A stretch of 64,000 nt of DNA, from NCBI GenBank assembly GCA_030765065.1, contig CM060984.1, forward strand, positions 103,149,488 to 103,213,487. The letters are read 5' to 3'. Position numbers and translations under genes: made by a program. The stretch is from Deroplatys truncata. Its lineage: Eukaryota; Arthropoda; Insecta; Mantodea; Mantidae. The notes under the pieces are model-generated. The model saw only the letters and a program-made list of their open reading frames with translations. It was not told where the DNA came from and made no database searches. Shown here piece by piece: positions 6,905 to 48,667 of the stretch. The stretch's first letter is position 1. Every line of letters starts with the position of its first letter.

Positions 6905-6907
6905 TTT

Positions 6908-13780: not shown

Positions 13781-13788
13781 ATTTATTA

Positions 13789-14694: not shown

Positions 14695-14696
14695 TA

Positions 14697-15573
14697 CTTT
14701 CTCTACTACGTATAGTAAGTAGGGGAAGTATTGCATTCCACCCAAAAATTCGATACCGAGATTTCACCGGAAATACATGTTTTGAGACCTCTTGAATCCA
14801 AAAAAAGCATTTTTGGAAACATGTCCGTGTGTGTGTCTGTGTGTCTGTGTGTGTGTGTCTGTGTGTGTGTCTGTGAACAGCATAACTCAAAAACGAACAG
14901 TCGGATAAACACCAAACTTGGTATTTAGGTTCAGTATCTTCCAGAGATGCGACACGAAGGTTTTCAAGAAAATCCCCCCACCCCAGACTACCCTTTACAT
15001 GGAACATTTTTCGAAAATTTTAATTTTCTCAAAAATGGCTCTAACGATTTTGATTAAAATATCATATGTTTAAGATAATGTCATGAGAAATGAAATGTAT
15101 ATCTCGAATTTTCTGGGAATGTCTCCAAAAGTATTCTTCATTGTGAACGACTTTTGCATAACTGGTAAACCATAAGAGATAGACAAAATTTTACTGCACA
15201 AAAAATGTAGATCTCGTTAAAATACACAACTTATGTCATATACATTTCTTTTGTTGAGTGTACCGTTTTCGAGATATTGCTTGTTATTCCCTTAAATTTT
15301 CCAATACTTATACTTTTTCTCAAATTCGTTATTCATTTTTTTATGTCCTGGACTTGCAAAAAGAATGGAATGCGCCGCATAGCAACCAGCGTTAAAATAT
15401 TTGACCATCGCTTAAAAGCTACCATATTCCCCTTGCATCTACAAGAAAATTAGCAATAAGATTGACATCTCGATATCTCGATTAACATAAAGCATATGGA
15501 GAATAGGCGTTTGTAAAAATAGATTGTACAACAGTAGAGAAAGTCATGTGAGTGTAACACATCAGATTTTTTT
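14697..15573 (+). repeat. Family A, full-length copy (tandem, second)
   Basis: This copy has the same ends as the previous one, with TA at 14695-14696 and 15574-15575. Its internal TG/TGTC microsatellite spans about 14825-14875. The frames that look long on the minus strand (14606-15007) are simply this repeat read through the microsatellite. Confidence 0.85.
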
Positions 15574-16610: not shown

Positions 16611-16954
16611 AAATGGTGGAGGCGCCTGCTTCTGTAAATTATTTTTGAGAAGTATGGTTCGACCCCGTACCTCTGTTTCTTATTCCTTATAACATGTTTA
16701 TGGTACAGGCACCGCCTCTCTAATTAGTGAGTTGACAATATGGCGAAGGTGCCAGCTTTTCGAAATTATTTTAATTGAAAAGTGAGGTCCGATCTTCGGC
16801 CTCTCAATTTTAAAAGTTTACAGCTTTTTTTTCGCAGCTCCTATAGCCGAAAACCTAATTTTAAATTTTTCTAGTTATTAAGTTCTTCTTTTTAAATATT
16901 CAACTTACTATCTAAGCATTATTTGAGTGTTATAAGTGTTCTTTTCTCCTTTGC

Positions 16955-18232
16955 ATGGAATTATTACCAAAGTATCTTAGCGATAGCCCTATTAGTGCCG
17001 AAATCAGAAAGTTAATCCGTGAATATCAGACTATTTTGGATACTAACACTCAAACTCAGAATCAAGCGCATATGTCCCATATTCATGTTAGATCTAGTAG
17101 ACGACTCCGAGGTTTGACTCCCATTCAGTATTTTGCACCAAAGGCACGTAGTTTAAGCGTGGGTGACCTGAACAACACAGTTTTGTCACACGATTATTTT
17201 GAAACGTTACCGTCTTCAGGTTCAAGCTCGACGGAAGACATTATGGCAATGAATACGGCCTCTACGTCGGCCGCACCCTCGGTTCCCGAAGGGACCCAGT
17301 GCAAAACAGTCATTACCGCGAATGTGCCTTTTGCACGACCTTTCATTGACCCTGGAAAATTCGAAGGCAAACCCGGTCAGGACGTTGGAAACTACCTCTA
17401 TAACTTTGAAACCATAGCTATAGCGAATGGTTGGGAAGATAAGCACAAACTACAATATTTACCATGCTATTTACGAGACGCAGCAGCAAATTGGTTCAAA
17501 ATATATTCCCTCCGTCACCCGCATCTTGAATGGACCGACCTAAAACATGTTCTTCAGACAGCATTCGTACCAGCGGCGCATGATGATATTTTAGAATGCC
17601 GCTTACGTCACAGAGTGCAGGACCTGTCTGAATCAACAGAGACTTACATATATGATGTACTAGCTCTCTGTGACCAGGTAAATCCAGGCATGGCCGAACC
17701 TGAAATAATTCGCCATATTGTGCGCGGATTGAAACCCTCGTTAATAGAAAGTGTCCTCCCCTCGAACCCACAATCTATTACAGAGCTTATACAGGTTGTT
17801 CGACGCGTAGAAACGGCCAGATATCTGGCTGGTAAAAGGGTTCATGCCCAACTACCTCCCGCATCCAAACCAATATCACTGGTCAGCCAACCAAGTCCAC
17901 GATCAGACGTAAAGCAACTGCAGCGCCAAATTCGTGGCTTGCAGAAACAAATGCAAAATTTGCAATTTAAATATCAGAGGCCCATTATTGACACGCCTCG
18001 CAATGCTCCGCAGCAATATGATGCAACTAGACAAAGCCGTGGGCGTAGTAGCTATAGTCAACGCGGCGGTATTAACGTTGCCTCGAGAGGAACATGGCGT
18101 GGCACTAATGCCTCCCGTCGCATGCCAAAAGATAGTTTCACATGTTTTAAATGCAGACGGACAGGACATACTGCCCCGAACTGCAGACAACAATACCATC
18201 ACCCAAACGGGCAAGGAACGTCACGGGAATAA
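16955..18232 (+). CDS. gag: Ty3/gypsy-type gag polyprotein, 425 codons, intact
   Basis: Gag would assemble the retrotransposon's cytoplasmic particle and package its RNA. After about 120 poorly conserved residues comes a capsid-like region (roughly residues 125-300: DPGKFEGKPGQDV, AAANWFKIY, LKHVLQTAFVP, ETYIYDVLALC, IRHIVRGLKP) of the Retrotrans_gag type. A heptad-like stretch (residues 310-335, QLQRQIRGLQKQMQNLQF) follows, then a basic Arg/Ser/Gly-rich tail. A CCHC zinc knuckle CFKCRRTGHTAPNC lies at residues 397-410. The ATG at 16955 is the first in a clean frame after the leader. Pol begins in another frame within the overlap, as expected for programmed frameshifting. The frame is intact although pol is disrupted, which suggests a fairly young copy. 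Confidence 0.9.
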   Translation: MELLPKYLSDSPISAEIRKLIREYQTILDTNTQTQNQAHMSHIHVRSSRRLRGLTPIQYFAPKARSLSVGDLNNTVLSHDYFETLPSSGSSSTEDIMAMNTASTSAAPSVPEGTQCKTVITANVPFARPFIDPGKFEGKPGQDVGNYLYNFETIAIANGWEDKHKLQYLPCYLRDAAANWFKIYSLRHPHLEWTDLKHVLQTAFVPAAHDDILECRLRHRVQDLSESTETYIYDVLALCDQVNPGMAEPEIIRHIVRGLKPSLIESVLPSNPQSITELIQVVRRVETARYLAGKRVHAQLPPASKPISLVSQPSPRSDVKQLQRQIRGLQKQMQNLQFKYQRPIIDTPRNAPQQYDATRQSRGRSSYSQRGGINVASRGTWRGTNASRRMPKDSFTCFKCRRTGHTAPNCRQQYHHPNGQGTSRE

Positions 18233-18360
18233 GTTCCGTGACGTCCATCACCGAGAGTACACCAAAACAAACCACGGCACTTATTCACGCGGTAAATGTC
18301 ATTACTATACAAGGTACGGTTGACAATCAACCAGTGAGTATACTGTTTGATACAGGCAGC
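18151..18360 (+). pseudogene. pol: Ty3/gypsy pol, start of protease (split by insertion)
   Basis: A frame shifted relative to gag overlaps its last 82 bases and reaches the aspartic-protease active-site motif ILFDTGS (about 18338-18358). It stops being retroelement sequence at 18360, where the palindromic insertion begins. The rest of the protease resumes at 35996 after the duplicated 6-bp target. The split separates the catalytic Asp-Thr-Gly from the C-terminal half of the protease. Confidence 0.85.
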
Positions 18361-18370
18361 AGTAGTATTA

Positions 18371-18519
18371 GTCCCGGATGAGCCAATTATTTTAACGATA
18401 ATCCTGCCGCTAGGGGCGCTGGTGTCGCTAGTGTCGGTGCGTGCGACGGCGGCGGCGGTAAGTTTGAAAAGCGCCCTGAGCGGTAGGATTATCGTTATTG
18501 CAATTGGTTCATCCGGGAC
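18371..18519. repeat. 149-bp terminal hairpin, left
   Basis: GTCCCGGATGAGCC... at the outer side pairs with ...GGTTCATCCGGGAC at the inner side. Arms of about 48 bp include the matching GATAATCCT(G/A)CCGCT stretch, with a GC-rich loop. The right arm has its mirror at 35831-35979. It resembles a MITE sitting just inside each terminus, or a subterminal foldback of the element itself. Confidence 0.8.
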
Positions 18520-21165
18520 GAGTTGAAAGAATTGAGGATTAGGGTAAGGTGAAGGAAGAAGAGGAAGTGACGTGGAGTGTTTTGATTGGTTTGTTAATTT
18601 GGGTGGAAGATGAAGGAAGGAAGATGGAAGAGTATGGAGGTCGCGTGATGGAGAGGAGCTGGGTGGCGAGGTGTTGTCTGTGCGGAGGTCGGGACTGAAA
18701 GAGGGAAAATATGGGGGAGCGAGGGATAAAAAGTGTAACAGAAAGTGACGTGTGAAGTTGTGATTGGTGGGAATAAGAAGTGATGTTATTGGTGGAAAGG
18801 AGCAAATGAAGGTTGTTGATTGGTAAGAATAAGAGGGATTATGATTGGTGGAAAGAAAAAGGTGTGGGAGTGGGGTATGTTGGAGGTGATGGGAAAGGTG
18901 AGTTTTGCTAGCAGCAAGATTTGCAAAAGCCTGTCTTGAACTGATCAGCAATTTTTGAACGTCGGATGGTAGTTTTCTTGAGTGGATAGAGAGATGGGGG
19001 CGATATGAGATGCGGTGGCGAAAATGGGGACTAGACAAGGTTGTTGAGACAAGAGGTTTAAGGACGAGGAAATTTGGAGGTTAGTGGTGAACACGGCGGT
19101 CGCAAGAGGTGGGGGTAAGGAGACGCAGTGGTGAGAATGGGAACTAAAAGAAGATGGGGGTAGCAAGAGTTTTAGAAGAGTAGATTTTGAGGTTAAAATA
19201 GTGGGAACTAAAAATGGCGGAGGGTCTGCGACAAGGAGATGCGGTGAGAACTAAACAAGATGGCGGTCGCAAGAGGAGGGTAAGGAGATTTGAGGTTACA
19301 GTACGAAAACACGAAAGGATATATTCCTACGCCAAGCAGGTCCGAAAAATAATTATGCGTGTGGTACTTACCTGTTACCGGTGTGGATGCGTCACCAAAA
19401 GCGCGGCACGCGAGGCGGAAAAATAAAAGCAAACTGTTTTTGAAAATGCTTAACCAGCTTTAAGATCAACCAACATCACTACGCACTGATATACCTAGGT
19501 TTTTAAAGCGGTACAGACACCCTTTGCAGAGGCGTAATTTAACTATACCAAAAACCTGGTACTGGACCATCGTGATGGTCGCTAGCGTACGTAGGAGCAG
19601 GGTTCTCATAGCCGGTCGAAAGCGGTCAAAAACGTGTACGACGTAGGTGTTGACAGTAGCTGCTGTCGAGTCAACGGTCGAGGTGTGAATAAACAAGATC
19701 TGTTCTCGCCGGCAATTTGGTTCGGAGATGTGAGCAGCGGCGAGGTGTTGTCTGTGCGGAGGTCGGGACTGAAAGAGGGAAAAGATGGGGAGCGAGGGAT
19801 AAAAAGTGTAACAGAAAGTGACGTGTGAAGTTGTGATTGGTGGGAATAAGAAGTGATTTTATTGGTGGAAAGGAGCAAATGAAAGTTGTTGATTGGTAAG
19901 AATAAGAGAGGTTATGATTGGTGGAAAGAAAAAGGAGTGGGGTATGTTGGAGGTGATGGGAAAGGTAAGTTTTGCTAGCAACAAGATTTGCAAAAGCCTG
20001 TCGTGAACTGATCAGCAATTTTTTGAACGTTGGATGGTAGTTTTGTTGAGTGGATAGAGAGATGGGGCGATATGAGATGCGGTGGCGAAAATGGGAACTA
20101 AACAAGGTGGTTGAGACAAGAGGTTTAAGGACGAGGAAATTTGGAGGTTAGTGGTGAACATGGCGGTCGCAAGAGGTGGGGGTAAGGAGACGCGGTGGTG
20201 AGAATGGGAACTAAAAGAAGATGGCGGTAGCAAGAGGTTAGAAGAGTAGATTTTGAGGTTAAAATAGCGGGAACTAAAAATGGCGGAGGGTCTGCGACAA
20301 GGAGATGCGGTGAGAACTAAACAAGATGGCGGACGCAAGAGGTGGGTAAGGAGGTTTGAGGTTACAGTACCAAAACACGAAAGGATATATTCCTACGCCA
20401 AGCAGGTCCGAAAAATAATTATGCGTGTGTTACTTACCTGTTACCGGTGTGGATGCGTCACCAAAAGCGCGGCACGCGAGACGGAAAAATAAAAGCAAAC
20501 TGTTTTTGAAAATGCTTAACCAGCTTTAAGATCAACCAACATCACTACGCACTGATATACCTAGGTTTTTAAAGCGGTACAGACACCCTTTGCAGAGGCG
20601 TAATTTAACTATACCAAAAACCTGGTACTGGACCATCGTGATGGTCGCTAGCGTACGTAGGAGCAGGGTTCTCATAGCCGGTCGAAAGCGGTCAAAAACG
20701 TGTACGACGTAGGTGTTGGCAGTAGCTGCTGCCGAGGCAACCGTCGAGGTGCGAATGAACGAGATCTGTTCTTGCAGGCAATCTGGTTGAGAGATGAGAG
20801 GCGCGGTGGTAAAAATGTGAACTAAATAAGATGGCGGAGGCACGAAGTTGAGGTTAAGGAGCGGCGAGGTGTTGACTGTGCGGCGGTTGGGGTCTGAAAG
20901 AGGGGGAAAGATGGCGAACGAGGGATAAAAAGTATAACAGAAAGTGACGTGTGAAGTTGTCATTGGTGGGAATAAGAAGTGATGTTATTGGTGGAAAGGA
21001 ACAAATGAAAGTTGCTGATTGGCGAGAATAAGAGAGATTATGATTGGTGGAAAGAAAAAAAGGTGTGGGAGTGGGGTATGTTGGAGGTGATGGAAAAGGC
21101 AAGTTTTGCTACCAACAACATTTGCAAAAGCCTATCCAGAACTCATCAGCAATTTTAAATAACTA
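18520..21165 (-). promoter_or_regulatory. Left-arm promoter-like block with 1.07-kb direct duplication
   Basis: On the minus strand (reading outward) there are blocks of about four CCAAT boxes followed by a CRE-like CACGTCAC: about 18745-18850, 19810-19920 and 20940-21050, plus a shorter CCAAT/CRE pair near 18565-18592. AAGATGGCGG-type motifs (YY1-like) recur, for example near 19256, 20217, 20323 and 20829. Two direct copies about 1066 bp apart each end in a consensus donor CAG/GTAAGT on the minus strand (19371 and 20437). The long Ser/Pro/His-rich frames here are repeats of these motifs. The right arm (33185-35830) is the mirror. Confidence 0.55.
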
Positions 21166-21904
21166 GTGTTTCGGGGGTTTTCTCTGGTTGGTAGACGAAT
21201 GCAAGCTGTTTCTACCATACTTATATTATTCGTCTTTTTCCTTTTTTTTTTTAAAATGACTAGTTTTTTTTTTTTTTTTTTTTGGGAGTTTTCTGCGGAT
21301 GGTAAACAAATGCAAGCTCTTTCTGCTTTTTCATAGGTTTTCCCTGGTTGGTAGGCGTTTTCTGTACTGGTTGACGAAGGCGTTTCTAATTTTGGAGGTT
21401 TTCTCAGGTTTTTAGCGGTTGTCCCTGCCCGGTAGGCAAATGATGAAGTTTTACCTTGTCGGCGCACGGATACTAGGCACGTACTGGCGCGCACACACAC
21501 ACACACACAGAGAGACAGACAGACACACAGACAGGCACACACACACGGACATGTTTCCAAAAATGCTTTTTTTTTTTTTTTTGATTCAGGAGGTCTCAAA
21601 ACGTGTATTTCCGGTGAAATCTCGGTATCGAATTTTTGGGCGGAATGCAATACTTCCCCTACTTACTATACGTAGTAGAGAAAGTAAAAAAGTATTGAAA
21701 AATTTAAGGAAATAACAAGCAATACCTCAAAAGTGTACTATCTTGTTTTCACGGGTTTTCCAGATCGGTAAGCGTTAGAATACTCTTAGAGCTTTTTTCA
21801 GGTTTTTTAGCGGTTGTCCCTGGCCGGTAGGCAAATGATAAAGTTTTTCTATAACGTCGTCGTTTTGGCTTGTGGCGCACGGATACTAGGCACGTACTCG
21901 CGCG

Positions 21905-21937
<33 letters not shown>

Positions 21938-21960
21938 TAAAATAGTAGCGTATAAAAAAA
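21166..21960. repeat. Left arm: SINE-tail-like pieces, family A end and CA/CG microsatellites
   Basis: Repeated snippets like 'ggttttccctggttggtagg' also occur in the SINE tail at 39185-39215. They surround a family A end (about 21545-21690) and two purine/pyrimidine microsatellites (about 21488-21548 and 21899-21938). Poly(T) runs at 21246-21285 complete a patchwork of degraded insertions. The mirror is 32390-33185. Confidence 0.6.
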
Positions 21961-22738
21961 AACTGATGTGTTACACTCACATGACTTTCTCTACTCTTGT
22001 ACAATCTAATTGGTAGCTTTTAAGCGATAGTCAAATATTTTAACGCTGGTTGCTATGTGGCGAATTCCATTCTGTTTGCATGTTCAGGACATAAAAAAAA
22101 TGAATAAACGAATTTGAGAAAAAGTATAAGTATTGGAAAATTTAAGGAAATAACAAGCAATATCTCGAAAACGGTTCACTCAACAAAAGAAACGTATATG
22201 ACATAAGTTGTGTATTTTAACGCGATCTACATTTTTTGTGTAGTAAAATTTTGTCTATCTCTTATGGTTTACCAGTTATGCAAAAAAGTCGTTCACAATG
22301 AAGAATATTTTTGGAGACATTCCCAGAAAATTCGAGATATACATTTTATTTGACATGACAATATCTTAAACATATGATGTTTTAATCAAAATCGTTAGAG
22401 CCGTTTTTGAGAAAATTAAAATTTTCGAAAAATGTTCCATGTAAAGGGTAGTCTGGGGTGGGGGGATTTTCTTGAAAACCTTCGTGTCGCATCTCTGGAA
22501 GATACTGAACCTAAATACCAAGTTTGGTGTTTATCCGACTGTTCGTTTTTGAGTTATGCTGTTCACAGACACACAGACACACAGACAGACACACACACGG
22601 ACATGTTTCCAAAAATGCTTTTTTTTTTTGGATTCAGAGATTCTCAAAACATGTATTTCCAGTGAAATCTCGGTAACGAATTTTTGGGTGGAATGCAATA
22701 CTTCCCCTACTTACTATACGTAGTAGAGAAAGTAAAAA
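21961..22738 (-). repeat. Left arm: family A copy
   Basis: It starts with 'aactgatgtgttacactcacatg' and ends 'gtagtagagaaagtaaaaa', with the family core and a CAGACA microsatellite (22568-22600). Its 3' two-thirds is duplicated immediately downstream. Confidence 0.8.
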
Positions 22739-23375
22739 TGAATAACGCATTTGAGAAAAAGTATAAGTATTGGAAAATTTAAGGAAATAACAAGCAATAT
22801 CTCGAAAACGGTTCACTCAACAAAAGAAACGTATATGACATAAGTTGTGTATTTTAACGCGATCTACATTTTTTGTGTAGTAAAATTTTGTCTATCTCTT
22901 ATGGTTTACCAGTTATGCAAAAAAGTCGTTCACAATGAAGAATATTTTTGGAGACATTCCCAGAAAATTCGAGATATACATTTTATTTGACATGACAATA
23001 TCTTAAACATATGATGTTTTAATCAAAATCGTTAGAGCCGTTTTTGAGAAAATTAAAATTTTCGAAAAATGTTCCATGTAAAGGGTAGTCTGGGGTGGGG
23101 GGATTTTCTTGAAAACCTTCGTGTCGCATCTCTGGAAGATACTGAACCTAAATACCAAGTTTGGTGTTTATCCGACTGTTCGTTTTTGAGTTATGCTGTT
23201 CACAGACACACAGACACACAGACAGACACACACACGGACATGTTTCCAAAAATGCTTTTTTTTTTTGGATTCAGAGATTCTCAAAACATGTATTTCCAGT
23301 GAAATCTCGGTAACGAATTTTTGGGTGGAATGCAATACTTCCCCTACTTACTATACGTAGTAGAGAAAGTAAAAA
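22739..23375 (-). repeat. Left arm: 637-bp tandem duplicate of family A
   Basis: Every landmark recurs 637 bp after its position in the preceding copy (for example 'atgttccatgtaaagggta' at 22432 and 23069). The two look identical or nearly so. This is a recent tandem duplication inside the arm, and it is mirrored at about 30980-31617. Confidence 0.85.
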
Positions 23376-25440
23376 TGAATAACGCATTTGAGATAAAGTA
23401 TAAGTATTGGAAAATTTAAGGAAATAACAAGCAATATCTCGAAAATGGTTCACTCAACTAAAAAAAAATGTATATGACATAAATTGTGTATTTTAACGCG
23501 ATCTACATTTTTTGTGTAGTAAAATTTTGGCTATCTCTTATGGTTTACCAGTTATGCATACTGAACCTAAATACCAAGTTTGGTGTTTATCCGACTGTTC
23601 GTTTTTGAGTTATGCTGTTCACAGACACACAGACGCACAGACAGACAGACACACAGACACACAGACACACAGACAGACACACACACGGACATGTTTCCAA
23701 AAATGCTTTTTTTTTTCTGGATTCAGTGATTCTCAAAACATGTATTTCCAGTGAAATCTCGGTATCGAATTTTTGGGTGGAATGCAATACTTCCCCTACT
23801 TACTATACGTAGTAGAGAAAGTAAAAATGAATAACGCATTTGAGAAAAAGTATAAGTATTGGAAAATTTAAAGGAAATAACAAGCAATATCTCGAAAAAC
23901 GGTTCACTCAACAAAATAAATGTATATGGCATAAGTTGTGTATTTTAACGCGATCTACATTTTTTGTGTAGCAAACTTTTGTCTATCTCTTACGGTTTAT
24001 CAGTTATGAAAAAGTCGTTCACAATGAAGAATTCTTTTGGAGACATTCCCAGAAAATTCGAGATATACATTTCATTTCTCTCGACATTATCTTAAATATA
24101 TGATATTTTCATCAAAATCGTTAGAGCCATTTTTTAATACAAAGAGAACGGGATTTCACAAGTGAAACAGTACTGTGATAACGATACCACTGAAACAAAA
24201 AAAAAAAATCTGATGTGTAACACTCACATGACTTTCTCAACTCTTGTACAAAGTATTTTTACAAACGCTTATTCGCCATCTAGTTCATGTTAATCGAGAT
24301 AAACATTTGCAAAATCTATTTTATTGCTAATTTTCTTGTATAAAAAAAAAAATCTGATGTGTAACACTCACATGACGTTCTCTACTCTTGTACAAAGTAT
24401 TTTTACAAACGCTTATGCTCCATCTAGTTCATGTTAATTGAGATAAACATTTGCAAACTCTATTTTATTGCTAATTTTCTTGTAGATGTAGGGGAAAATA
24501 TATTTACAAGGGGAATATAGAAAAACAGTAGCCTTTAAGCACATACATATCTCTTAATAGCTGGTTGCTATGTGCAGCACCATTCTTTTTGCCACAGATT
24601 AATACTGTTTGCATATCAAAGACAAAAAAAAATGAATAACGAAGTCCCATTTGAGAAAATAAATATTGGAAAATTAACAAACAATATCTCGAAAACGGTT
24701 CACTCAACAACAAAAATGTATATTACATAAGATGTGTATTTTAACGCGATCTACATTTTTTGTGTAGTAAAATTTTGTCTATCTCTTACGGTTTTTCAGT
24801 TATGAAAAAGACGTTCACAATGAAGAATACTTTTGGAGACATTCCCAGAAAATTCGAGATATACATTTCATTTCTCACGACATTATATTAAACATACGAT
24901 ATTTTTCATCAAAATCGTTAGAGCCATTTTTTTTAATACAAAGAGAACGGGATTTCACAAGTGAAACAGTACTGTGATAACGATACCAACAAAACTAATT
25001 ATTATTCACCCACTGAAACACATAAAAAAAATCTGATGTGTAACACTCACATGACTTTTCTCATCTCTTTTACAAAGTATTTTTACAAACGCTTATTCCC
25101 CATCTAGTTCATGTTAATCGAGATAAACATTTGCAAACTCTATTTTATTGCTAATTTTCTTGTAGATGTAGGGAAAATATATTTACAAGGGGAATATAGA
25201 AAAACAGTAGCCTTTAAGCACATACATATCTCTTAATAGCTGGTTGCTATGTGCAGTACCATTCTTTTTGCCACAGATTAATACTCTTTGCATATCAAAG
25301 ACAAAAAAAAAATGAATAACGAATTCCCATTTGAGAAAATAACTATTGGAAAATTTAAGTAAATAACAAGCAATATCTCGAAAACGGTTCACTCAACAAT
25401 AAAGATGTATATGACATAAGTTGTGTATTTTAACGCGATC
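23376..25440 (-). repeat. Left arm: further deleted and rearranged family A copies
   Basis: A third tandem copy (23376-23826) lacks about 0.5 kb between 'ggtttaccagttatgcat' and 'actgaacctaaatacc'. Further partial copies follow to 25440, several joined to a recurring stretch reading 'agagaacgggatttcac..tactgtgataacgata' (24142-24192 and 24942-24992). That stretch is not part of the standard family and may mark a second element. The right arm mirrors all of this at 28918-30980. Confidence 0.7.
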
Positions 25441-25905
25441 TACATACTTTCGTACTCACCTATAAGATATAGAGGGTAGAGGTCGTACGAACGTAGCACT
25501 TTGAGAATTTATATTCAACAGTTGGTGTTACTCCTTAGAAAGGAAGTATCTGCTGATTTTTATTTAATTCTTTACATTTTACATAACACGTATGCACTGG
25601 CACAACACAAAAGCACTACACACGATACTCAGTTTTAATATTTGCACTAATAACATCAGGAATAACTGAAGTCTGCAAACAGTCATTTCCCATGTGCAGC
25701 CTTACGTACAGAGAACGTGTGTGGCTGATCTATGTGTAAAACGAGCCTGAGAGCGGATGTACGTCAGCGGTAAAATCTTTTAAATGCATTTTTATTGGCG
25801 ATGGTAGAAATCGTGCAGTGGTGGATCGTGAAAATTCATATAAATGGATGTATCACCTCATAATAAGCCTCTATATACCAAGAATATTGAGTTTTTAAAA
25901 AGTCA
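25441..25905 (-). promoter_or_regulatory. Left arm: TATA-like segment with splice-donor consensus
   Basis: Its mirror on the plus strand is 28453-28918. Reading outward on the minus strand, a TATATAGAGG box (near 25877) lies directly beside the 76-bp array. About 430 bp later comes CTTATAG/GTGAGTACG, a strong 5' splice-site consensus (near 25450). No convincing open frame lies between. This could be a promoter plus non-coding first exon, but the evidence is motif-level only. Confidence 0.35.
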
Positions 25906-26960
25906 GCAACTGTACCTGTGTTTCTATACGTGAACGTCAGATGGCAGCTTCGATACGTGTCCACGGAGACCTTAGTGCTAGGCAACTGTACCTCTGTTTC
26001 TATACGTGAACGGCAGATTGCAGCTTCGATACGTGTCCACGGAGACCTTAGTGCTAGGCAACTGTACCTCTGTTTCTATACGTGAACGGCAGATTGCAGC
26101 TTCGATACGTGTCCACGGAGACCTTAGTGCTAGGCAACTGCACCTCTGTTTCTATACGTGAACGGCAGATTGCAGCTTCGATACGTGTCCACGGAGACCT
26201 TAGCGCTAGGCAACTGCACCTCTGTTTCTATACGTGAACGGCAGATTGCAGCTTCGATACGTGTCCACGGAGACCTTAGTGCTAGGCAACTGTACCTCTG
26301 TTTCTATACGTGAACGGCAGATTGCAGCTTCGATACGTGTCCACGGAGACCTTAGTGCTAGGCAACTGTACCTGTGTTTCTATACGTGAACGGCAGATTG
26401 CAGCTTCGATACGTGTCCACGGAGACCTTAGTGCTAGGCAACTGCACCTCTGTTTCTATACGTGAACGGCAGATTGCAGCTTCGATACGTGTCCACGGAG
26501 ACCTTAGCGCTAGGCAACTGCACCTCTGTTTCTATACGTGAACGGCAGATTGCAGCTTCGATACGTGTCCACGGAGACCTTAGTGCTAGGCAACTGTACC
26601 TCTGTTTCTATACGTGAACGGCAGATTGCAGCTTCGATACGTGTCCACGGAGACCTTAGTGCTAGGCAACTGCACCTCTGTTTCTATACGTGAACGGCAG
26701 ATTGCAGCTTCGATACGTGTCCACGGAGACCTTAGCGCTAGGCAACTGCACCTCTGTTTCTATACGTGAACGGCAGATTGCAGCTTCGATACGTGTCCAC
26801 GGAGACCTTAGTGCTAGGCAACTGTACCTGTGTTTCTATACGTGAACGTCAGATGGCAGCTTCGATACGTGTCCACGGAGACCTTAGTGTTAGGCAACTG
26901 TACCTCTGTTTCTATACGTGAACGGCAGATTGCAGCTTCGATACGTGTCCACGGAGACCT
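25906..26960. repeat. 76-bp tandem array, left (about 14 copies)
   Basis: The unit starts GCAACTGTACCTCTG and repeats at 25906, 25982, 26058, 26134 and so on, with an exact 76-bp period. Units differ at a few positions (TAC/CAC, AGTG/AGCG, GTC/GGC), and the first and a late unit share 'gaacgtcagatggcag'. Each unit has two TACGTG cores (TATACGTGAACG and GATACGTGTCC). The right array is shorter, so copy number is the main difference between the arms. Confidence 0.95.
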
Positions 26961-27480
26961 TTCGCTTCAGGTGACAAAATAACACTAGGCACTTGTGTGC
27001 CGTGGTGTAAGCCGCAATCACGGTATTGGTAGCGTGGATCTCCTTGGGGCTCTCCTCGGAGTTACCTCAACACCACGTACATGACCTGGTTCGTCACGGG
27101 TACGCAGGTCTGCACTACCACTTCCTCGGCGTTGAGCAGGCCCAGGAGGCGATCGTACCGGTACACCAGCTAGCACGTGGACATGTTATCGCGCTGTGGT
27201 GTTGCGTGTGCGAGGTATGGAAACTCAAGGACGCAAAACATGCACGACCGAGGGTTAAAAAGCAGAACAAGTAGTGACGTGGAGCGTTGTGATTGGTGTA
27301 AATAAGACGATCTCTGATAGGTGGACAAATTGAAATAACGTGATGTGATAGGCGAAAATAAAATCAAAGGTGATTGGATGAAAAATGACGAGAAGGAATT
27401 AGCGGTGAATTTGTGAACTAAGATGGCGAAGATTTTTTTTTTTAAAAAATAGGATAATATAAGTACGGCAACTGTAACGG
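26961..27480. other. Unique loop of the palindromic element
   Basis: This is the only long part of the element without a mirror copy. It holds the exon-like stretch at 27066-27169 and then a degraded version of the arms' CRE/CCAAT block (27273-27380: GTGACGTGG, GATTGGTG, GATTGGATG). A final AAGATGGCG precedes a T/A run. Confidence 0.7.
27066..27169 (-). pseudogene. Exon-like fragment of unknown gene in the loop
   Basis: The minus strand has 34 codons open between an AG (GTGCTAG) and a donor-like GAG/GTAACT. The peptide begins LVYRYDRLLGLLNAEE and continues VVVQTCVPVTNQVMYVVL. About 32 of 35 third positions are G or C, utterly unlike the AT-rich neighbourhood, which is a strong coding signature. 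The pyrimidine tract before the acceptor is weak. I do not recognise the protein. It may be a captured host exon or a piece of a lost element gene. The plus-strand frame across it is its antisense shadow. Confidence 0.4.
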
Positions 27481-27492
27481 TTTACGGCAAAC

Positions 27493-27579
27493 GCGCGCCG
27501 CGCAATGCGTCACGCCGGGCATCTTGCTCAATATGATTTTTGTTTTATTGCCCGGGCGTGACGCATTGCGCGGCGCGCA
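27493..27579. repeat. GC-rich hairpin at the loop/array junction
   Basis: GCGCGCCGCGCAATGCGTCA at 27493-27512 pairs with TGACGCATTGCGCGGCGCGC at 27559-27578. The stem continues about 8 bp further inward with one bulge, giving about 28 bp and a 29-nt AT-rich loop. It lies exactly where the right tandem array begins. A recombination or replication-fold-back point is plausible. Confidence 0.9.
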
Positions 27580-28452
27580 ATCTGCCGTTCACGTATAGAA
27601 ACAGAGGTGCAGTTGCCTAGCACTAAGGTCTCCGTGGACACGTATCGAAGCTGCAATCTGACGTTCACGTATAGAAACAGAGGTGCAGTTGCCTAGCACT
27701 AAGGTCTCCGTGGACACGTATCGAACCTGCAATCTCCCGTTCACGTATAGAAACAGAGGTACAGTTGCCTAGCACTAAGGTCTCCGTGGACACGTATTGA
27801 AGCTGCAATCTGCCGTTCACGTATAGAAACAGAGGTGCAGTTGCCTAGCACTAAGGTCTCCGTGGATACGTATCGAAGCTGCAATCTGCCGTTCACGTAT
27901 AGAAACAGAGGTGCAGTTGCCTAGCACTAAGGTCTCCGTGGACACGTATCGAAGCTGCAATCTGCCGTTCACGTATAGAAACACAGGTACAGTTGCCTAG
28001 CACTAAGGTCTCCGTGGACACGTATCGAAGCTGCAATCTGCCGTTCACGTATAGAAACAGAGGTACAGTTGCCTAGCACTAAGGTCTCCGTGGACACGTA
28101 TCGAAGCTGCAATTTGCCGTTCACGTATAGAAACAGAGGTGCAGTTGCCTAGCGCTAAGGTCTCCGTGGACACGTATCGAAGCTGCAATCTGCCGTTCAC
28201 GTATAGAAACAGAGGTGCAGTTGCCTAGCACTAAGGTCTCCGTGGACACGTATCGAAGCTGCAATCTGCCGTTCACGTATAGAAACAGAGGTACAGTTGC
28301 CTAGCACTAAGGTCTCCGTGGACACGTATCGAAGCTGCAATCTGCCGTTCACGTATAGAAACAGAGGTACAGTTGCCTAGCACTAAGGTCTCCGTGGACA
28401 CGTATCGAAGCTGCCATCTGACGATCACGTATAGAAACACAGGTACAGTTGC
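27579..28452. repeat. 76-bp tandem array, right (about 11.5 copies)
   Basis: The array has the same 76-bp unit in reverse orientation, starting CTGCCGTTCACGTATAG after the GC hairpin and ending CAGTTGC. It is about 180 bp shorter than the left array. Individual units carry private changes (for example 'gaacctgcaatctcccg' near 27725), so it is not a simple mirror copy unit by unit. Confidence 0.95.
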
Positions 28453-28918
28453 TGACTTTTTAAAAACTCAATATTCTTGGTATATAGAGGCTTATTATGA
28501 GGTGATACATCCATTTATATGAATTTTCACGATCCACCACTGCACGATTTCTACCATCGCCAATAAAAATGCATTTAAAAGATTTTACCGCTGACGTACA
28601 TCCGCTCTCAGGCTCTTTTTACACATAGATCAGCCACACACGTTCTCTGTACGTAAGGCTGCACATGGGAAATGACTGTTTGCAGACTTCAGTTATTCCT
28701 GATGTTATTAGTGCAAATATTAAAACTGAGTATCGTGTGTAGTGCTTTTGTGTTGTGCCAGTGCATACGTGTTATGTAAAATGTAAAGAATTAAATAAAA
28801 ATCAGCAGATACTTCCTTTCTAAGGAGTAACACCAACTGTTGAATATAAATTCTCAAAGTGCTACGTTCGTACGACCTCTACCCTCTATATCTTATAGGT
28901 GAGTACGAAAGTATGTAG
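28453..28918 (+). promoter_or_regulatory. Right arm: TATA-like segment with splice-donor consensus
   Basis: This is the mirror of 25441-25905. TATATAGAGG at about 28480 follows the tandem array at once, and CTTATAG/GTGAGTACG lies near 28905. Any transcript would run outward through the arm's family A pieces. Confidence 0.35.
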
Positions 28919-31900
28919 ATCGCGTTAAAATACACAACTTATGTCATATACATCTTTATTGTTGAGTGAACCGTTTTCGAGATATTGCTTGTTATTTACT
29001 TAAATTTTCCAATAGTTATTTTCTCAAATGGGAATTCGTTATTCATTTTTTTTTTGTCTTTGATATGCAAAGAGTATTAATCTGTGGCAAAAAGAATGGT
29101 ACTGCACATAGCAACCAGCTATTAAGAGATATGTATGTGCTTAAAGGCTACTGTTTTTCTATATTCCCCTTGTAAATATATTTTCCCTACATCTACAAGA
29201 AAATTAGCAATAAAATAGAGTTTGCAAATGTTTATCTCGATTAACATGAACTAGATGGGGAATAAGCGTTTGTAAAAATACTTTGTACAAGAGATGAGAA
29301 AAGTCATGTGAGTGTTACACATCAGATTTTTTTTATGTGTTTCAGTGGGTGAATAATAATTAGTTTTGTTGGTATCGTTATCACAGTACTGTTTCACTTG
29401 TGAAATCCCGTTCTCTTTGTATTAAAAAAAATGGCTCTAACGATTTTGATGAAAAATATCGTATGTTTAATATAATGTCGTGAGAAATGAAATGTATATC
29501 TCGAATTTTCTGGGAATGTCTCCAAAAGTATTCTTCATTGTGAACGTCTTTTTCATAACTGAAAAACCGTAAGAGATAGACAAAATTTTACTACACAAAA
29601 AATGTAGATCGCGTTAAAATACACATCTTATGTAATATACATTTTTGTTGTTGAGTGAACCGTTTTCGAGATATTGTTTGTTAATTTTCCAATATTTATT
29701 TTCTCAAATGGGACTTCGTTATTCATTTTTTTTGTCTTTGATATGCAAACAGTATTAATCTGTGGCAAAAAGAATGGTGCTGCACATAGCAACCAGCTAT
29801 TAAGAGATATGTATGTGCTTAAAGGCTACTGTTTTTCTATATTCCCCTTGTAAATATATTTTCCCCTACATCTACAAGAAAATTAGCAATAAAATAGAGT
29901 TTGCAAATGTTTATCTCAATTAACATGAACTAGATGGAGCATAAGCGTTTGTAAAAATACTTTGTACAAGAGTAGAGAACGTCATGTGAGTGTTACACAT
30001 CAGATTTTTTTTTTTATACAAGAAAATTAGCAATAAAATAGATTTTGCAAATGTTTATCTCGATTAACATGAACTAGATGGCGAATAAGCGTTTGTAAAA
30101 ATACTTTGTACAAGAGTTGAGAAAGTCATGTGAGTGTTACACATCAGATTTTTTTTTTGTTTCAGTGGTATCGTTATCACAGTACTGTTTCACTTGTGAA
30201 ATCCCGTTCTCTTTGTATTAAAAAATGGCTCTAACGATTTTGATGAAAATATCATATATTTAAGATAATGTCGAGAGAAATGAAATGTATATCTCGAATT
30301 TTCTGGGAATGTCTCCAAAAGAATTCTTCATTGTGAACGACTTTTTCATAACTGATAAACCGTAAGAGATAGACAAAAGTTTGCTACACAAAAAATGTAG
30401 ATCGCGTTAAAATACACAACTTATGCCATATACATTTATTTTGTTGAGTGAACCGTTTTTCGAGATATTGCTTGTTATTTCCTTTAAATTTTCCAATACT
30501 TATACTTTTTCTCAAATGCGTTATTCATTTTTACTTTCTCTACTACGTATAGTAAGTAGGGGAAGTATTGCATTCCACCCAAAAATTCGATACCGAGATT
30601 TCACTGGAAATACATGTTTTGAGAATCACTGAATCCAGAAAAAAAAAAGCATTTTTGGAAACATGTCCGTGTGTGTGTCTGTCTGTGTGTCTGTGTGTCT
30701 GTGTGTCTGTCTGTCTGTGCGTCTGTGTGTCTGTGAACAGCATAACTCAAAAACGAACAGTCGGATAAACACCAAACTTGGTATTTAGGTTCAGTATGCA
30801 TAACTGGTAAACCATAAGAGATAGCCAAAATTTTACTACACAAAAAATGTAGATCGCGTTAAAATACACAATTTATGTCATATACATTTTTTTTAGTTGA
30901 GTGAACCATTTTCGAGATATTGCTTGTTATTTCCTTAAATTTTCCAATACTTATACTTTTTCTCAAATGCGTTATTCATTTTTACTTTCTCTACTACGTA
31001 TAGTAAGTAGGAGAAGTATTGCATTCCACCCAAAAATTCGTTACCGAGATTTCACTGGAAATACATGTTTTGAGAATCTCTGAATCCAAAAAAAAAAGCA
31101 TTTTTGGAAACATGTCCGTGTGTGTGTCTGTCTGTGTGTCTGTGTGTCTGTGAACAGCATAACTCAAAAACGAACAGTCGGATAAACACCAAACTTGGTA
31201 TTTAGGTTCAGTATCTTCCAGAGATGCGACACGAAGGTTTTCAAGAAAATCCCCCCACCCCAGACTACCCTTTACATGGAACATTTTTCGAAAATTTTAA
31301 TTTTCTCAAAAACGGCTCTAACGATTTTGATTAAAACATCATATGTTTAAGATATTGTCATGTCAAATAAAATGTATATCTCGAATTTTCTGGGAATGTC
31401 TCCAAAAATATTCTTCATTGTGAACGACTTTTTTGCATAACTGGTAAACCATAAGAGATAGACAAAATTTTACTACACAAAAAATGTAGATCGCGTTAAA
31501 ATACACAACTTATGTCATATACGTTTCTTTTGTTGAGTGAACCGTTTTCGAGATATTGCTTGTTATTTCCTTAAATTTTCCAATACTTATACTTTTTCTC
31601 AAATGCGTTATTCATTTTTACTTTCTCTACTACGTATAGTAGGTAGGGGAAGTATTGCATTCCACCCAAAAATTCGTTACCGAGATTTCACTGGAAATAC
31701 ATGTTTTGAGAATCTCTGAATCCAAAAAAAAAAAAGCATTTTTGGAAACATGTCCGTGTGTGTGTCTGTCTGTGTGTCTGTGTGTCTGTGAACAGCATAA
31801 CTCAAAAACGAACAGTCGGATAAACACCAAACTTGGTATTTAGGTTCAGTATCTTCCAGAGATGCGACACGAAGGTTTTCAAGAAAATCCCCCCACCCCA

Positions 31901-32390
31901 GACTACCCTTTACATGGAACATTTTTCGAAAATTTTAATTTTCTCAAAAACGGCTCTAACGATTTTGATTAAAACATCATATGTTTAAGATATTGTCATG
32001 TCAAATAAAATGTATATCTCGAATTTTCTGGGAATGTCTCCAAAAATATTCTTCATTGTGAACGACTTTTTTGCATAACTAGTAAACCATAAGAGATAGA
32101 CAAAATTTTACTACACAAAAAATGTAGATCGCGTTAAAATACACAACTTATGTCATATACGTTTCTTTTGTTGAGTGAACCGTTTTCGAGATATTGCTTG
32201 TTATTTCCTTAAATTTTCCAATACTTATACTTTTTCTCAAATTCGTTTATTCATTTTTTTTATGTCCTGAACATGCAAACAGAATGGAATTCGCCACATA
32301 GCAACCAGCGTTAAAATATTTGACTATCGCTTAAAAGCTACCAATTAGATTGTACAAGAGTAGAGAAAGTCATGTGAGTGTAACACATCA
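28919..32390 (+). repeat. Right arm: family A cluster (mirror of left)
   Basis: This is the reverse-complement counterpart of 21961-25440, including the internally deleted copy (about 30530-30980) and the 637-bp tandem pair (about 30980-32250). Differences from the left arm are a few substitutions and homopolymer-length changes, for example in the A runs near 31090 and 31730. Confidence 0.85.
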
Positions 32391-32412
32391 GTTTTTTTTT
32401 ATACGCTACTAT

Positions 32413-32451
<39 letters not shown>

Positions 32452-33184
32452 CGCGAGTACGTGCCTAGTATCCGTGCGCCACAAGCCAAAACGACGACGT
32501 TATAGAAAAACTTTATCATTTGCCTACCGGCCAGGGACAACCGCTAAAAAACCTGAAAAAAGCTCTAAGAGTATTCTAACGCTTACCGATCTGGAAAACC
32601 CGTGAAAACAAGATAGTACACTTTTGAGGTATTGCTTGTTATTTCCTTAAATTTTTCAATACTTTTTTACTTTCTCTACTACGTATAGTAAGTAGGGGAA
32701 GTATTGCATTCCGCCCAAAAATTCGATACCGAGATTTCACCGGAAATACACGTTTTGAGACCTCCTGAATCAAAAAAAAAAAAAAAAAAGCATTTTTGGA
32801 AACATGTCCGTGTGTGTGTGCCTGTCTGTGTGTCTGTCTGTCTCTCTGTGTGTGTGTGTGTGCGCGCCAGTACGTGCCTAGTATCCGTGCGCCGACAAGG
32901 TAAAACTTCATCATTTGCCTACCGGGCAGGGACAACCGCTAAAAACCTGAGAAAACCTCCAAAATTAGAAACGCCTTCGTCAACCAGTACAGAAAACGCC
33001 TACCAACCAGGGAAAACCTATGAAAAAGCAGAAAGAGCTTGCATTTGTTTACCATCCGCAGAAAACTCCCAAAAAAAAAAAAAAACTAGTCATTTTAAAA
33101 AAAAAAAAGGAAAAAGACGAATAATATAAGTATGGTAGAAACAGCTTGCATTCGTCTACCAACCAGAGAAAACCCCCGAAACAC
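32391..33184. repeat. Right arm: SINE-tail pieces and microsatellites (mirror of left)
   Basis: This is the counterpart of 21166-21960, with (TG)n(CG)n at 32417-32456 and TG/TC tracts at 32810-32862. A runs near 32770 and 33070-33110 differ slightly in length from the left arm. Confidence 0.75.
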
Positions 33185-35830
33185 TAGTTATTTAAAATTG
33201 CTGATGAGTTCTGGATAGGCTTTTGCAAATGTTGTTGGTAGCAAAACTTGCCTTTTCCATCACCTCCAACATACCCCACTCCCACACCTTTTTTTCTTTC
33301 CACCAATCATAATCTCTCTTATTCTCGCCAATCAGCAACTTTCATTTGTTCCTTTCCACCAATAACATCACTTCTTATTCCCACCAATGACAACTTCACA
33401 CGTCACTTTCTGTTATACTTTTTATCCCTCGTTCGCCATCTTTCCCCCTCTTTCAGACCCCAACCGCCGCACAGTCAACACCTCGCCGCTCCTTAACCTC
33501 AACTTCGTGCCTCCGCCATCTTATTTAGTTCACATTTTTACCACCGCGCCTCTCATCTCTCAACCAGATTGCCTGCAAGAACAGATCTCGTTCATTCGCA
33601 CCTCGACGGTTGCCTCGGCAGCAGCTACTGCCAACACCTACGTCGTACACGTTTTTGACCGCTTTCGACCGGCTATGAGAACCCTGCTCCTACGTACGCT
33701 AGCGACCATCACGATGGTCCAGTACCAGGTTTTTGGTATAGTTAAATTACGCCTCTGCAAAGGGTGTCTGTACCGCTTTAAAAACCTAGGTATATCAGTG
33801 CGTAGTGATGTTGGTTGATCTTAAAGCTGGTTAAGCATTTTCAAAAACAGTTTGCTTTTATTTTTCCGTCTCGCGTGCCGCGCTTTTGGTGACGCATCCA
33901 CACCGGTAACAGGTAAGTAACACACGCATAATTATTTTTCGGACCTGCTTGGCGTAGGAATATATCCTTTCGTGTTTTGGTACTGTAACCTCAAACCTCC
34001 TTACCCACCTCTTGCGTCCGCCATCTTGTTTAGTTCTCACCGCATCTCCTTGTCGCAGACCCTCCGCCATTTTTAGTTCCCGCTATTTTAACCTCAAAAT
34101 CTACTCTTCTAACCTCTTGCTACCGCCATCTTCTTTTAGTTCCCATTCTCACCACCGCGTCTCCTTACCCCCACCTCTTGCGACCGCCATGTTCACCACT
34201 AACCTCCAAATTTCCTCGTCCTTAAACCTCTTGTCTCAACCACCTTGTTTAGTTCCCATTTTCGCCACCGCATCTCATATCGCCCCATCTCTCTATCCAC
34301 TCAACAAAACTACCATCCAACGTTCAAAAAATTGCTGATCAGTTCACGACAGGCTTTTGCAAATCTTGTTGCTAGCAAAACTTACCTTTCCCATCACCTC
34401 CAACATACCCCACTCCTTTTTCTTTCCACCAATCATAACCTCTCTTATTCTTACCAATCAACAACTTTCATTTGCTCCTTTCCACCAATAAAATCACTTC
34501 TTATTCCCACCAATCACAACTTCACACGTCACTTTCTGTTACACTTTTTATCCCTCGCTCCCCATCTTTTCCCTCTTTCAGTCCCGACCTCCGCACAGAC
34601 AACACCTCGCCGCTGCTCACATCTCCGAACCAAATTGCCGGCGAGAACAGATCTTGTTTATTCACACCTCGACCGTTGACTCGACAGCAGCTACTGTCAA
34701 CACCTACGTCGTACACGTTTTTGACCGCTTTCGACCGGCTATGAGAACCCTGCTCCTACGTACGCTAGCGACCATCACGATGGTCCAGTACCAGGTTTTT
34801 GGTATAGTTAAATTACGCCTCTGCAAAGGGTGTCTGTACCGCTTTAAAAACCTAGGTATATCAGTGCGTAGTGATGTTGGTTGATCTTAAAGCTGGTTAA
34901 GCATTTTCAAAAACAGTTTGCTTTTATTTTTCCGCCTCGCGTGCCGCGCTTTTGGTGACGCATCCACACCGGTAACAGGTAAGTACCACACGCATAATTA
35001 TTTTTCGGACCTGCTTGGCGTAGGAATATATCCTTTCGTGTTTTCGTACTGTAACCTCAAATCTCCTTACCCTCCTCTTGCGACCGCCATCTTGTTTAGT
35101 TCTCACCGCATCTCCTTGTCGCAGACCCTCCACCATTTTTAGTTCCCACTATTTTAACCTCAAAATCTACTCTTCTAAAACTCTTGCTACCCCCATCTTC
35201 TTTTAGTTCCCATTCTCACCACTGCGTCTCCTTACCCCCACCTCTTGCGACCGCCGTGTTCACCACTAACCTCCAAATTTCCTCGTCCTTAAACCTCTTG
35301 TCTCAACAACCTTGTCTAGTCCCCATTTTCGCCACCGCATCTCATATCGCCCCCATCTCTCTATCCACTCAAGAAAACTACCATCCGACGTTCAAAAATT
35401 GCTGATCAGTTCAAGACAGGCTTTTGCAAATCTTGCTGCTAGCAAAACTCACCTTTCCCATCACCTCCAACATACCCCACTCCCACACCTTTTTCTTTCC
35501 ACCAATCATAATCCCTCTTATTCTTACCAATCAACAACCTTCATTTGCTCCTTTCCACCAATAACATCACTTCTTATTCCCACCAATCACAACTTCACAC
35601 GTCACTTTCTGTTACACTTTTTATCCCTCGCTCCCCCATATTTTCCCTCTTTCAGTCCCGACCTCCGCACAGACAACACCTCGCCACCCAGCTCCTCTCC
35701 ATCACGCGACCTCCATACTCTTCCATCTTCCTTCCTTCATCTTCCACCCAAATTAACAAACCAATCAAAACACTCCACGTCACTTCCTCTTCTTCCTTCA
35801 CCTTACCCTAATCCTCAATTCTTTCAACTC
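33185..35830 (+). promoter_or_regulatory. Right-arm promoter-like block with 1.07-kb direct duplication
   Basis: This is the mirror of 18520-21165. On the plus strand, CCAAT clusters followed by CACGTCAC lie at about 33300-33410, 34430-34540 and 35500-35605, and a short pair lies at 35760-35788. GCCATCTT (YY1-like) motifs recur. Donors CAG/GTAAGT lie at 33913 and 34979. A 76-codon frame (34654-34881) and the last part of a 143-codon frame (33387-33815) share the same C-terminal peptide ending LRLCKGCLYRFKNLGI, because the underlying DNA is duplicated. I do not recognise it. Confidence 0.55.
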
Positions 35831-35979
35831 GTCCCGGATGAACCAATTGCAATAACGATAATCCTACCGCTCAGGGCGCTTTTCAAACTTACCGCCGCCG
35901 CCGTCGCACGCACCGACACTAGCGACACCAGCGCCCCTAGCGGCAGGATTATCGTTAAAACAATTGGCTCATCCGGGAC
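35831..35979. repeat. 149-bp terminal hairpin, right
   Basis: This is the mirror of 18371-18519. GTCCCGGATGAACC pairs with GGCTCATCCGGGAC about 120 bp further on. It lies 10 bp inside the element's right end. Confidence 0.8.
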
Positions 35980-35995
35980 TAATACTACTGGCAGC

Positions 35996-36963
35996 GCAGT
36001 CAGTATAGTACAACAAAATTTTGTGACCACACCCACCCGATTCCGATAGATTTGATACTACGGACGGCAGATAATACATTACTAGATGTATGTTATTCCA
36101 CCACTCTTTGCTTCAACATTAATGGCATATCCTTTGAGGAGGATGTTCTTGTTGTTAAAGAGTTCGGACATGATCTCCTATTAGGCATGGATTTCATGAA
36201 CCGACATAAGGCCCTAATTGACTTGGAAACATACACAATTACTCTTAAACTTCCGGACTCATCCCAATTAGAATTACATTGTGGCGAAAAATTAGGATGC
36301 CCATTGGCACAAATTACCGTGGAATCGAACGAGGAAACCGCGGTGCCACACAAAGCGTGTTGTATACAAGATATTCGCATTCCCCCTTTCACATCAGTAA
36401 ATGTTAAAGTGAAATTGCCTCCTAATGTAATGGGTAGAATTCTCTTAGAACCAAAAGGAGCTATCATGCAGAAGAAAAATTTGCAAATATCCCCTATCTT
36501 TTGCGAAGCTCGTAAAGAATGTGTCATCCCAGTACACAATAATACAATGGAGCCTAAATCAATTTTCGCGGGAACCACTCTTGCTTATGCGCATGAAGTA
36601 GCGCTAATACAAGCTGCAAATTGGTCTCCCGAAGATACACACTCAGTCGACATTAAAAATGCAAAATTTAACTTTAACTCACAACTTACACAGGACCAAC
36701 AAATACAATTGAGTGCTTTATTGCAGAAATACCTACACGTATTTGCTACACAATTAAAGGAGCTAGGAAAAACTAACATAGGTGAATTTAAAATTCAAGT
36801 CACTGATGACAAACCTATAAAACAAAGACCCTATGGTGTATCTCAGGCACAAAGAGAAATAATACAATCCCAGGTGCGTGAGATGCTCGACGCAGGTATT
36901 ATCAAGGAAGAGCACAGCCCTTGGGCTGCGCCTGTAGTCTTAGTCAAGAAAAAGAAAATTTAA
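35996..36963 (+). pseudogene. pol: Ty3/gypsy pol: protease C-half, linker and start of RT, truncated
   Basis: The frame resumes the protease directly after the duplicated GGCAGC. A one-base shift near 36035 moves it into the 36052-36963 frame, which holds the second protease signature DLLLGMDFM near 36170-36200. A linker of about 200 residues follows, then the RT N-terminus (QRPYGVSQAQREIIQ...VREMLDAGIIKEEHSPWAAPVVLVKKK). It ends before the RT catalytic YxDD, so RNase H, integrase and the 3' LTR are absent. A stop comes at the junction with the inverted repeat. Dead copy. Confidence 0.9.
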
Positions 36964-47783: not shown

Positions 47784-47788
47784 TTAAA

Positions 47789-48499: not shown

Positions 48500-48537
<38 letters not shown>

Positions 48538-48664: not shown

Positions 48665-48667
48665 TAA

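Follow-up and report, generated by a model that had tools for sequence, protein, structure and literature searches.

A long palindrome in the mantis Deroplatys truncata as a probable non-autonomous derivative of a Maverick transposon

Structure of the palindrome and its insertion site

In a 64,000-nt stretch of the genome of the mantis Deroplatys truncata (GenBank assembly GCA_030765065.1, contig CM060984.1, forward-strand positions 103,149,488 to 103,213,487; hereafter the window), a gypsy retroelement is interrupted by a palindrome spanning positions 18361 to 35989, whose two arms of 8.4 to 9.2 kb meet at a short central turn. Here we describe this palindrome and the genomic copies that share its ends, some of which encode enzymes of the Maverick (Polinton) transposons. 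When the window was compared with itself by BLAST, one inverted match dominated (18360-26781 against 35990-27577), covering 8426 columns at 99.6% identity with 18 mismatches and 9 gaps, which bears out the end-to-end inverted repeat proposed in an earlier note made from the sequence alone. Outside a 76-bp tandem array, over 7.5 kb (18361-25905), the arms differed by 9 substitutions and 9 small indels. The same note had suggested that the whole was inserted as a unit, and this also held: copies of GGCAGC at both edges form a perfect 6-bp target duplication within the gypsy protease, and when the 72-nt flanks were joined (...ILFDTGSAVSIVQQNF...) the reading frame was kept across the protease motif, DTGS included. 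The frame of the left flank, if continued into the palindrome, ran into a stop codon. Of the gypsy host, Gag (PF03732) was recognized before the palindrome and RVP_2 (protease/pol) after it.

Besides pieces of a dispersed 0.9-kb repeat, each arm contains a tandem 1.07-kb unit and the 76-bp array. The first 159 bases form a long hairpin that starts 10 bases inside the end (fold z -11.2; none of 200 shuffles was equal). A Pfam scan of 12 of the 18 open reading frames (ORFs) of at least 80 aa in the arms and apparent loop gave no domain, consistent with the previous observation that no transposase lies inside, and no integrase of the palindrome's own was found in these 12. No RNA family was recognized in the window at Rfam gathering scores, and one arm ORF and the gag ORF had no protein relatives at E 0.001. 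In the outer arm (18521-21160) we also observed a marked strand bias, with a G skew of up to +0.73, and, against Markov-simulated controls, an excess of the motifs TGATTGG (9 versus 0.5 expected) and ATGGCGG (7 versus 0.2 expected), which we take to resemble NF-Y and YY1 sites.

At the centre, stems of 29 to 30 bases flank a turn of 27 nt. A unique loop of about 0.6 kb had previously been placed between the arms, and in the window the distance from the start of the array to the stem is indeed unequal, with 1587 bases in one arm versus 874 in the other. Five sister palindromes, however, carry the "loop" sequence on either side of the turn (in L065 one side is partial, as the compared stretch ended), and about 0.71 kb must therefore have been lost from the right arm of the window copy. 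A genome-wide search for the deletion junction returned one match, which is that of the window, so the deletion is private to this copy and a functional loop can be rejected.

Copies with the same ends in the genome

The 21-base terminus of the palindrome, allowing up to 2 mismatches, matched the 4.29-Gb genome 2419 times in forward and 2410 times in reverse orientation, compared with 1 and 0 matches for the reversed control. It had no match in viral contigs, and 4 matches of a 17-mer in prokaryote contigs are presumably due to chance. Among 93 exact termini listed on contig C1, 84 formed 42 plus/minus pairs less than 40 kb apart and 10.0 to 23.2 kb long; the others had no partner in the list. 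A perfect 6-bp duplication bracketed 40 of the 42 pairs (in 39 cases at the first terminus and in one at a nested terminus lying 693 bp outward), and the other two showed a single mismatch, so that the same ends do recur elsewhere with short duplications, as the earlier note had proposed to check. Its alternative of a 4-bp duplication (GCAG, the terminus then extending by one base) is excluded by these perfect 6-bp duplications and by the base preceding AGTAGT, which varies among other copies. The duplications showed a weak preference for NACGTN. Two individual palindromes had unusual ends. At C1:57.03-57.05 Mb (L041/L042/L070), an additional terminus lies 693 bp outside the first, and it is the outer one that fits the left duplication. 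At C1:157.997 Mb (L030/L031), a 10.6-kb derivative lacks most of one arm but still has its two ends within a perfect duplication, suggesting that shortened forms can be mobile as well.

The sequence adjoining the end repeat on its inner side was used to type the 42 pairs: 22 had the PolB-side type at both ends (same-type), 20 were mixed (asymmetric), and none had the other type at both ends. The pairs came in two batches, of 13 same-type and 9 asymmetric, and of 9 same-type and 11 asymmetric. Among the 13 same-type pairs of the first batch, 9 had ends that matched each other along the whole, or nearly the whole, of the 1.5 to 2.9 kb compared. Median length was 17.0 kb for palindromes (n = 23, window included) versus 19.1 kb for asymmetric copies (n = 20). 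The 159-bp repeat was present at both ends of both kinds, and the inverted identity reached 153 to 159 bp in 9 asymmetric copies. End tags, allowing up to 3 mismatches, gave 4096 PolB-side and 1046 other-side matches (controls, 0). On the assumption that every asymmetric copy carries one tag of each type, this corresponds to an estimated 1,050 or so asymmetric and about 1,525 palindromic copies, a figure to be read with the caveat that some elements contain nested tags and that one element owes its two other-side tags to an end replacement. In that element (L111-L113, C2:178.64 Mb), a gene-type copy, 723 bp of the opposite end stand in place of the PolB-side terminus, so that the end repeat measures 723 bp instead of 159 bp; the duplication, GGCCGG, is perfect. 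With a repeat of merely 723 bp, this pair was rejected as a palindrome of the coding end.

Three of four asymmetric copies were scanned for protein domains. L023 contains a 979-residue ORF with DNA_pol_B_2 (PF03175; E 2.6e-37), and L024, part of the same element, has rve (E 2.3e-15) together with Chromo. Both rve (E 3.4e-15) and Chromo were also found in L017, and L025 has a 1276-residue ORF of the DNA polymerase family (E 1.8e-46). Enzyme-bearing relatives with the same ends, whose existence the earlier note had left to be checked, are therefore present, and the mobilizing enzyme need not stay unknown, as it was then, since these copies encode PolB, a Maverick-type family B DNA polymerase of the protein-primed class, and a Maverick-type integrase of retroviral kind. 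At the PolB-side end of asymmetric copies, the first 5 to 6 kb or so contain no long ORF. The window arm maps piecewise to this end (L025:101-5160, and also L023 and L018), in pieces that are 75 to 97% alike, the longest being 2.07 kb at 93%, with some pieces repeated, inverted or out of order, and an antisense scrap of polB lies inside the arm beside the turn. Together, the piecewise match and the polB relic indicate that the palindrome was built of Maverick, and by these alignments both arms are the noncoding PolB-side end of such an element. By its ends, target duplication and relatives, the palindrome is a Maverick/Polinton, while the coding feature of the group is itself missing; it is classed as non-autonomous because no coding capacity of its own was recognized in the ORFs scanned.

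The features of the window are collected in Table 1. Outside the palindrome, a dispersed repeat, about 0.9 kb long, occurs at 6903-7777, 13780-14700, 14690-15573, 40466-41355, 47786-48671, 55620-56538 and 60567-61421. Its copies are about 72 to 96% alike, several have inverted CTTTCTCTAC/GTAGAGAAAG near their ends, and pieces of it are nested in the palindrome arms. A fragment with a Mos1-type helix-turn-helix, near the gypsy element (37729-38094), is apparently a mariner relic.

Table 1. Coordinates of the palindrome, its parts and the interrupted gypsy element in the window
Feature	Position	Strand	Remarks
gag ORF of interrupted gypsy element	16916..18232	+	PF03732
Target-site duplication GGCAGC, left copy	18355..18360		Joined-flank reading
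Left arm	18361..27521	+	Complete; without recognized coding
159-bp Maverick terminal inverted repeat, left	18361..18519	+	Starts AGTAGT; hairpin from base 11
Part of left arm	18361..25667		Piecewise counterpart of noncoding PolB-side end, L025:101-5160
G-rich 1.07-kb unit, two in tandem, left arm	18665..20800	+	Partial third unit to 21156
76-bp tandem array, left arm	25906..26961	+	13.9 copies
Apparent loop: inner end of left arm	26962..27492	+	Called a loop in the earlier note; partner deleted here
Antisense polB relic	26965..27196	-	76% DNA identity to L025:8641-8871; tblastn E 8e-18; one stop
Central hairpin	27493..27578		Stems 27493-27521 and 27549-27578 flank the turn; fold z -8.8
Turn, 27 nt	27522..27548		Conserved centre
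Right arm	27549..35989	-	Inverted copy without about 0.71 kb beside the turn
76-bp tandem array, right arm	27577..28452	-	11.5 copies
1.07-kb units, right arm	33544..35685	-	
159-bp Maverick terminal inverted repeat, right	35831..35989	-	
Open frame over downstream part of gypsy protease and following pol	35983..36963	+	RVP_2
Target-site duplication GGCAGC, right copy	35990..35995		Joined-flank reading

Origin and copying of the palindromes

We compared the arms within and between elements. A tree was built from 37 arm ends, those of 14 palindromes and 9 asymmetric copies. The two arms of an element were sisters in 13 of the 14 palindromes, and left arms, for which the comparison was made, were closest to their own partners in all 14. 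Over the outer 2.9 kb of five related palindromes, 9 differences in 14391 positions were counted within elements versus 527 in 57497 between them; pairwise comparisons of this kind are not independent, and test values serve as a guide only. The between-element difference climbed outward from 0.3% to 2.0%. Arm divergence was 0 to 0.6% in the young group, 1.2 to 2.1% in older, more isolated copies (L007/8, L009/10, L015/16 and L049/50) and 6.3% in L029/61. The simplest reading of these figures is that the arms are made identical near the time of copying and drift once inserted. Ordinary gene conversion between inserted arms, as in sex-chromosome palindromes and with no role for replication, would fit the 99 to 100% end-to-end identity of the younger copies equally well. 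Continuing conversion would keep the arms of all copies alike, however, and the divergence in older copies therefore counts against it; we regard conversion as an unlikely explanation.

The turn was found 884 times in the genome within 3 mismatches (control, 0). Of 14 palindromes whose central pieces were compared (window included), 10 had the turn with no more than 2 mismatches, and in an eleventh, L047/48, it was found outside the pieces compared. It was absent from all four asymmetric copies compared (12 to 13 mismatches of 32). A count restricted to exact matches covered the first 224 Mb of C1, at which point the listed PolB-side tags stop (nine further exact C1 turns and later other-side tags are omitted). 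It placed the turn in 31 of the 39 same-type pairs built there and in none of the 18 mixed pairs, and all 31 exact turns among the matches listed there lay inside same-type pairs. The turn was within 10 bp of the midpoint in 15 of these 31 pairs and within 160 bp in 25; the farthest, 3.7 kb off, was in a copy with most of one arm lost. Even L019/20 and L021/22, which are distant from each other, have the turn in common. Since one conserved hairpin turn is found in most palindromes, most of them descend from a single palindromic ancestor and were multiplied as palindromes.

These observations also bear on the idea that every palindrome arose from a fresh snap-back of a Maverick strand, its arms being identical because newly copied. 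Near-identical arms within elements, with differences between elements, would be expected from such events, and the interleaving of palindrome and asymmetric arm ends that we observed in the tree would be as well. The replaced end of L111-L113 and the nested terminus of L041/L042 likewise demonstrate that one end can serve as the source of another. Against this, palindromes of different subfamilies have the turn, its hairpin and the flanking loop sequence in common, and the turn is missing from the four asymmetric copies and the 18 mixed pairs compared; we consider a separate origin of every palindrome improbable. Three fixed differences between the sides near the turn, seemingly shared between elements, proved to be an alignment artifact at a one-base stem indel and were gone on realignment.

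Two further explanations can be dismissed. Foldback elements combine long inverted repeats and internal tandem arrays with little coding sequence or none, and the palindrome shares these features. A Mutator-type foldback, or a Galileo-like element of the P superfamily whose arms are very long, is nevertheless ruled out, as these families make target duplications of 8 to 10 bp, while the copies here have 6-bp duplications in 40 of 42 pairs, a Maverick end motif and same-ended relatives encoding PolB and rve integrase, so the earlier note was right to set the palindrome apart from the usual foldback elements. Palindromes are also a recognized artifact of folded-back reads, but the arm differences are dispersed, a target duplication brackets the window palindrome, among the 42 other pairs, 22 are likewise same-type and most of these have distinct duplications of their own, and the turn recurs hundreds of times, so an assembly or sequencing artifact would require hundreds of identical artifacts, each copying a 6-bp duplication, and has a negligible probability.

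We consider it highly probable that the palindrome is a non-autonomous derivative of a Maverick of the same genome, that the family stems mainly from one fold-back founder, and that it was amplified as palindromes and mobilized in trans. Protein-primed replication, as established for adenovirus and phi29, displaces a single strand. In a single founding event, a displaced Maverick strand would have folded back near a small hairpin and been copied to its own end, giving a product with two PolB-side ends and zero genes. PolB provided in trans would then copy the palindrome, protein-primed, from both of its identical ends, and the integrase of gene-bearing copies would insert it by 6-bp staggered joining, so that the family would at present depend on those copies. 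Because a displaced palindrome strand must snap back on itself, one arm would be copied from the other around each transposition, and a damaged or recombined end could be rewritten from its partner; after copying, the arms would diverge like the long terminal repeats (LTRs) of retroviruses. Copying from end to end is evidenced by L111-L113 (723 bp replaced) and by L041/L042 (extra terminus 693 bp out), and fold-back rewriting of ends would account for both of these as well as for the likeness of the arms. The ends, the duplications, the coding relatives, a turn common to most palindromes and the likeness of the arms were observed, while a fold-back origin, mobilization in trans and arm copying during replication are inferred.

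Several observations weigh against this interpretation. In 4 of the 13 same-type pairs of the first batch, the end match stopped at 0.6, 1.6, 1.9 and 2.6 kb; the same-type call of the 9 second-batch pairs is based on end stretches of 280 bp; and the 42 pairs, having exact termini on a single contig, are a nonrandom sample. The turn was missing in the compared pieces of 4 of the 14 palindromes (L029/61, L047/48, L049/50 and L051/52), L049/50 having kept loop pieces on both sides with the turn gone, and L029/61 and L051/52 could each go back to an independent fold-back. The arms of L047/L048 were not sisters in the tree. At the centre, the within-element difference (6 in 2498) was not lower than that between elements (32 in 9976), and the copying signal is therefore restricted to the outer arm, where the outward rise in between-element difference could reflect an exchange of ends among elements. 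Of the Maverick genes, only PolB and the integrase gave confident matches in asymmetric copies; the ATPase signal consisted of weak P-loop matches below the cut-off (E 0.011), and neither a protease nor a capsid gene turned up among the scanned ORFs. Mobilization in trans, finally, is deduced from the shared ends and duplications.

A derivation from a fold-back founder also allows a bolder version, which we put forward tentatively and think rather unlikely. The palindrome may belong to a gene-less parasite that replicates as a hairpin, i.e., as a linear DNA of about 9 kb with one protein-capped Maverick end and one closed hairpin end, the turn, so that copying around the hairpin would yield the integrating 17- to 18-kb palindrome. 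Such an element would be a satellite of Mavericks, perhaps packaged in their capsids, and, if it exists, hairpin-based replication would have been grafted onto a protein-primed system.

Mavericks are a supposed link between transposons and DNA viruses, and their replication has been deduced from their polymerase. The shared turn, together with arms that appear to have been copied one from the other, is what strand displacement followed by snap-back would be expected to leave behind, and the palindromic family may thus preserve the Maverick mode of replication in the genome. If the arms start out identical, each insertion would also have a clock of its own, like LTR elements.

Comparison with known systems

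Intact vertebrate Mavericks have (AGT)2//(ACT)2 ends, 6-bp duplications, lengths of 12.7 to 24.6 kb and published terminal repeats of 46 to 1,447 bp (PMC8097293). The window palindrome is like them in its AGTAGT...ACTACT ends, 6-bp duplication and length class, and in having relatives with PolB and rve integrase. It differs in that it has no recognized genes, that its "terminal repeat" is the whole 8.4- to 9.2-kb arm, and that its 159-bp end repeat folds as a hairpin of its own. Among the papers listed by searches of the open-licence literature, with subscription journals and Repbase outside the search, none was found to describe a palindromic Maverick. The Ginger, IS3EU/GingerRoot and IS481EU elements have related integrase-type enzymes, but their ends differ from the AGTAGT seen here: those of Ginger and IS481EU begin with TG/TNT and those of IS3EU/GingerRoot are mostly TA..TA, with duplications of 6 bp for IS3EU/GingerRoot and 4 to 5 bp for Ginger (PMC2836005, PMC10045372).

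The foldback elements Tetris and Galileo have other ends, another enzyme and another duplication length, and the arms here meet at a 27-nt turn. A parallel may lie in viruses. The defective genomes of incomplete adenovirus particles were reportedly recognized by Daniell in 1976 as inverted duplications of one end of the protein-primed linear genome, presumably made by snap-back of the displaced strand. The available part of another adenovirus study describes left-end fragments of increasing length, interpreted as packaging intermediates, and does not mention inverted duplications (PMC5033970). By analogy, the palindrome may work like the defective snap-back genome of a protein-primed virus. 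While the defective genomes of adenovirus are by-products in infected cells, the palindrome described here belongs to a heritable, amplified genomic family, which suggests that palindromes resembling defective genomes can turn into a stable and very abundant family of transposons.

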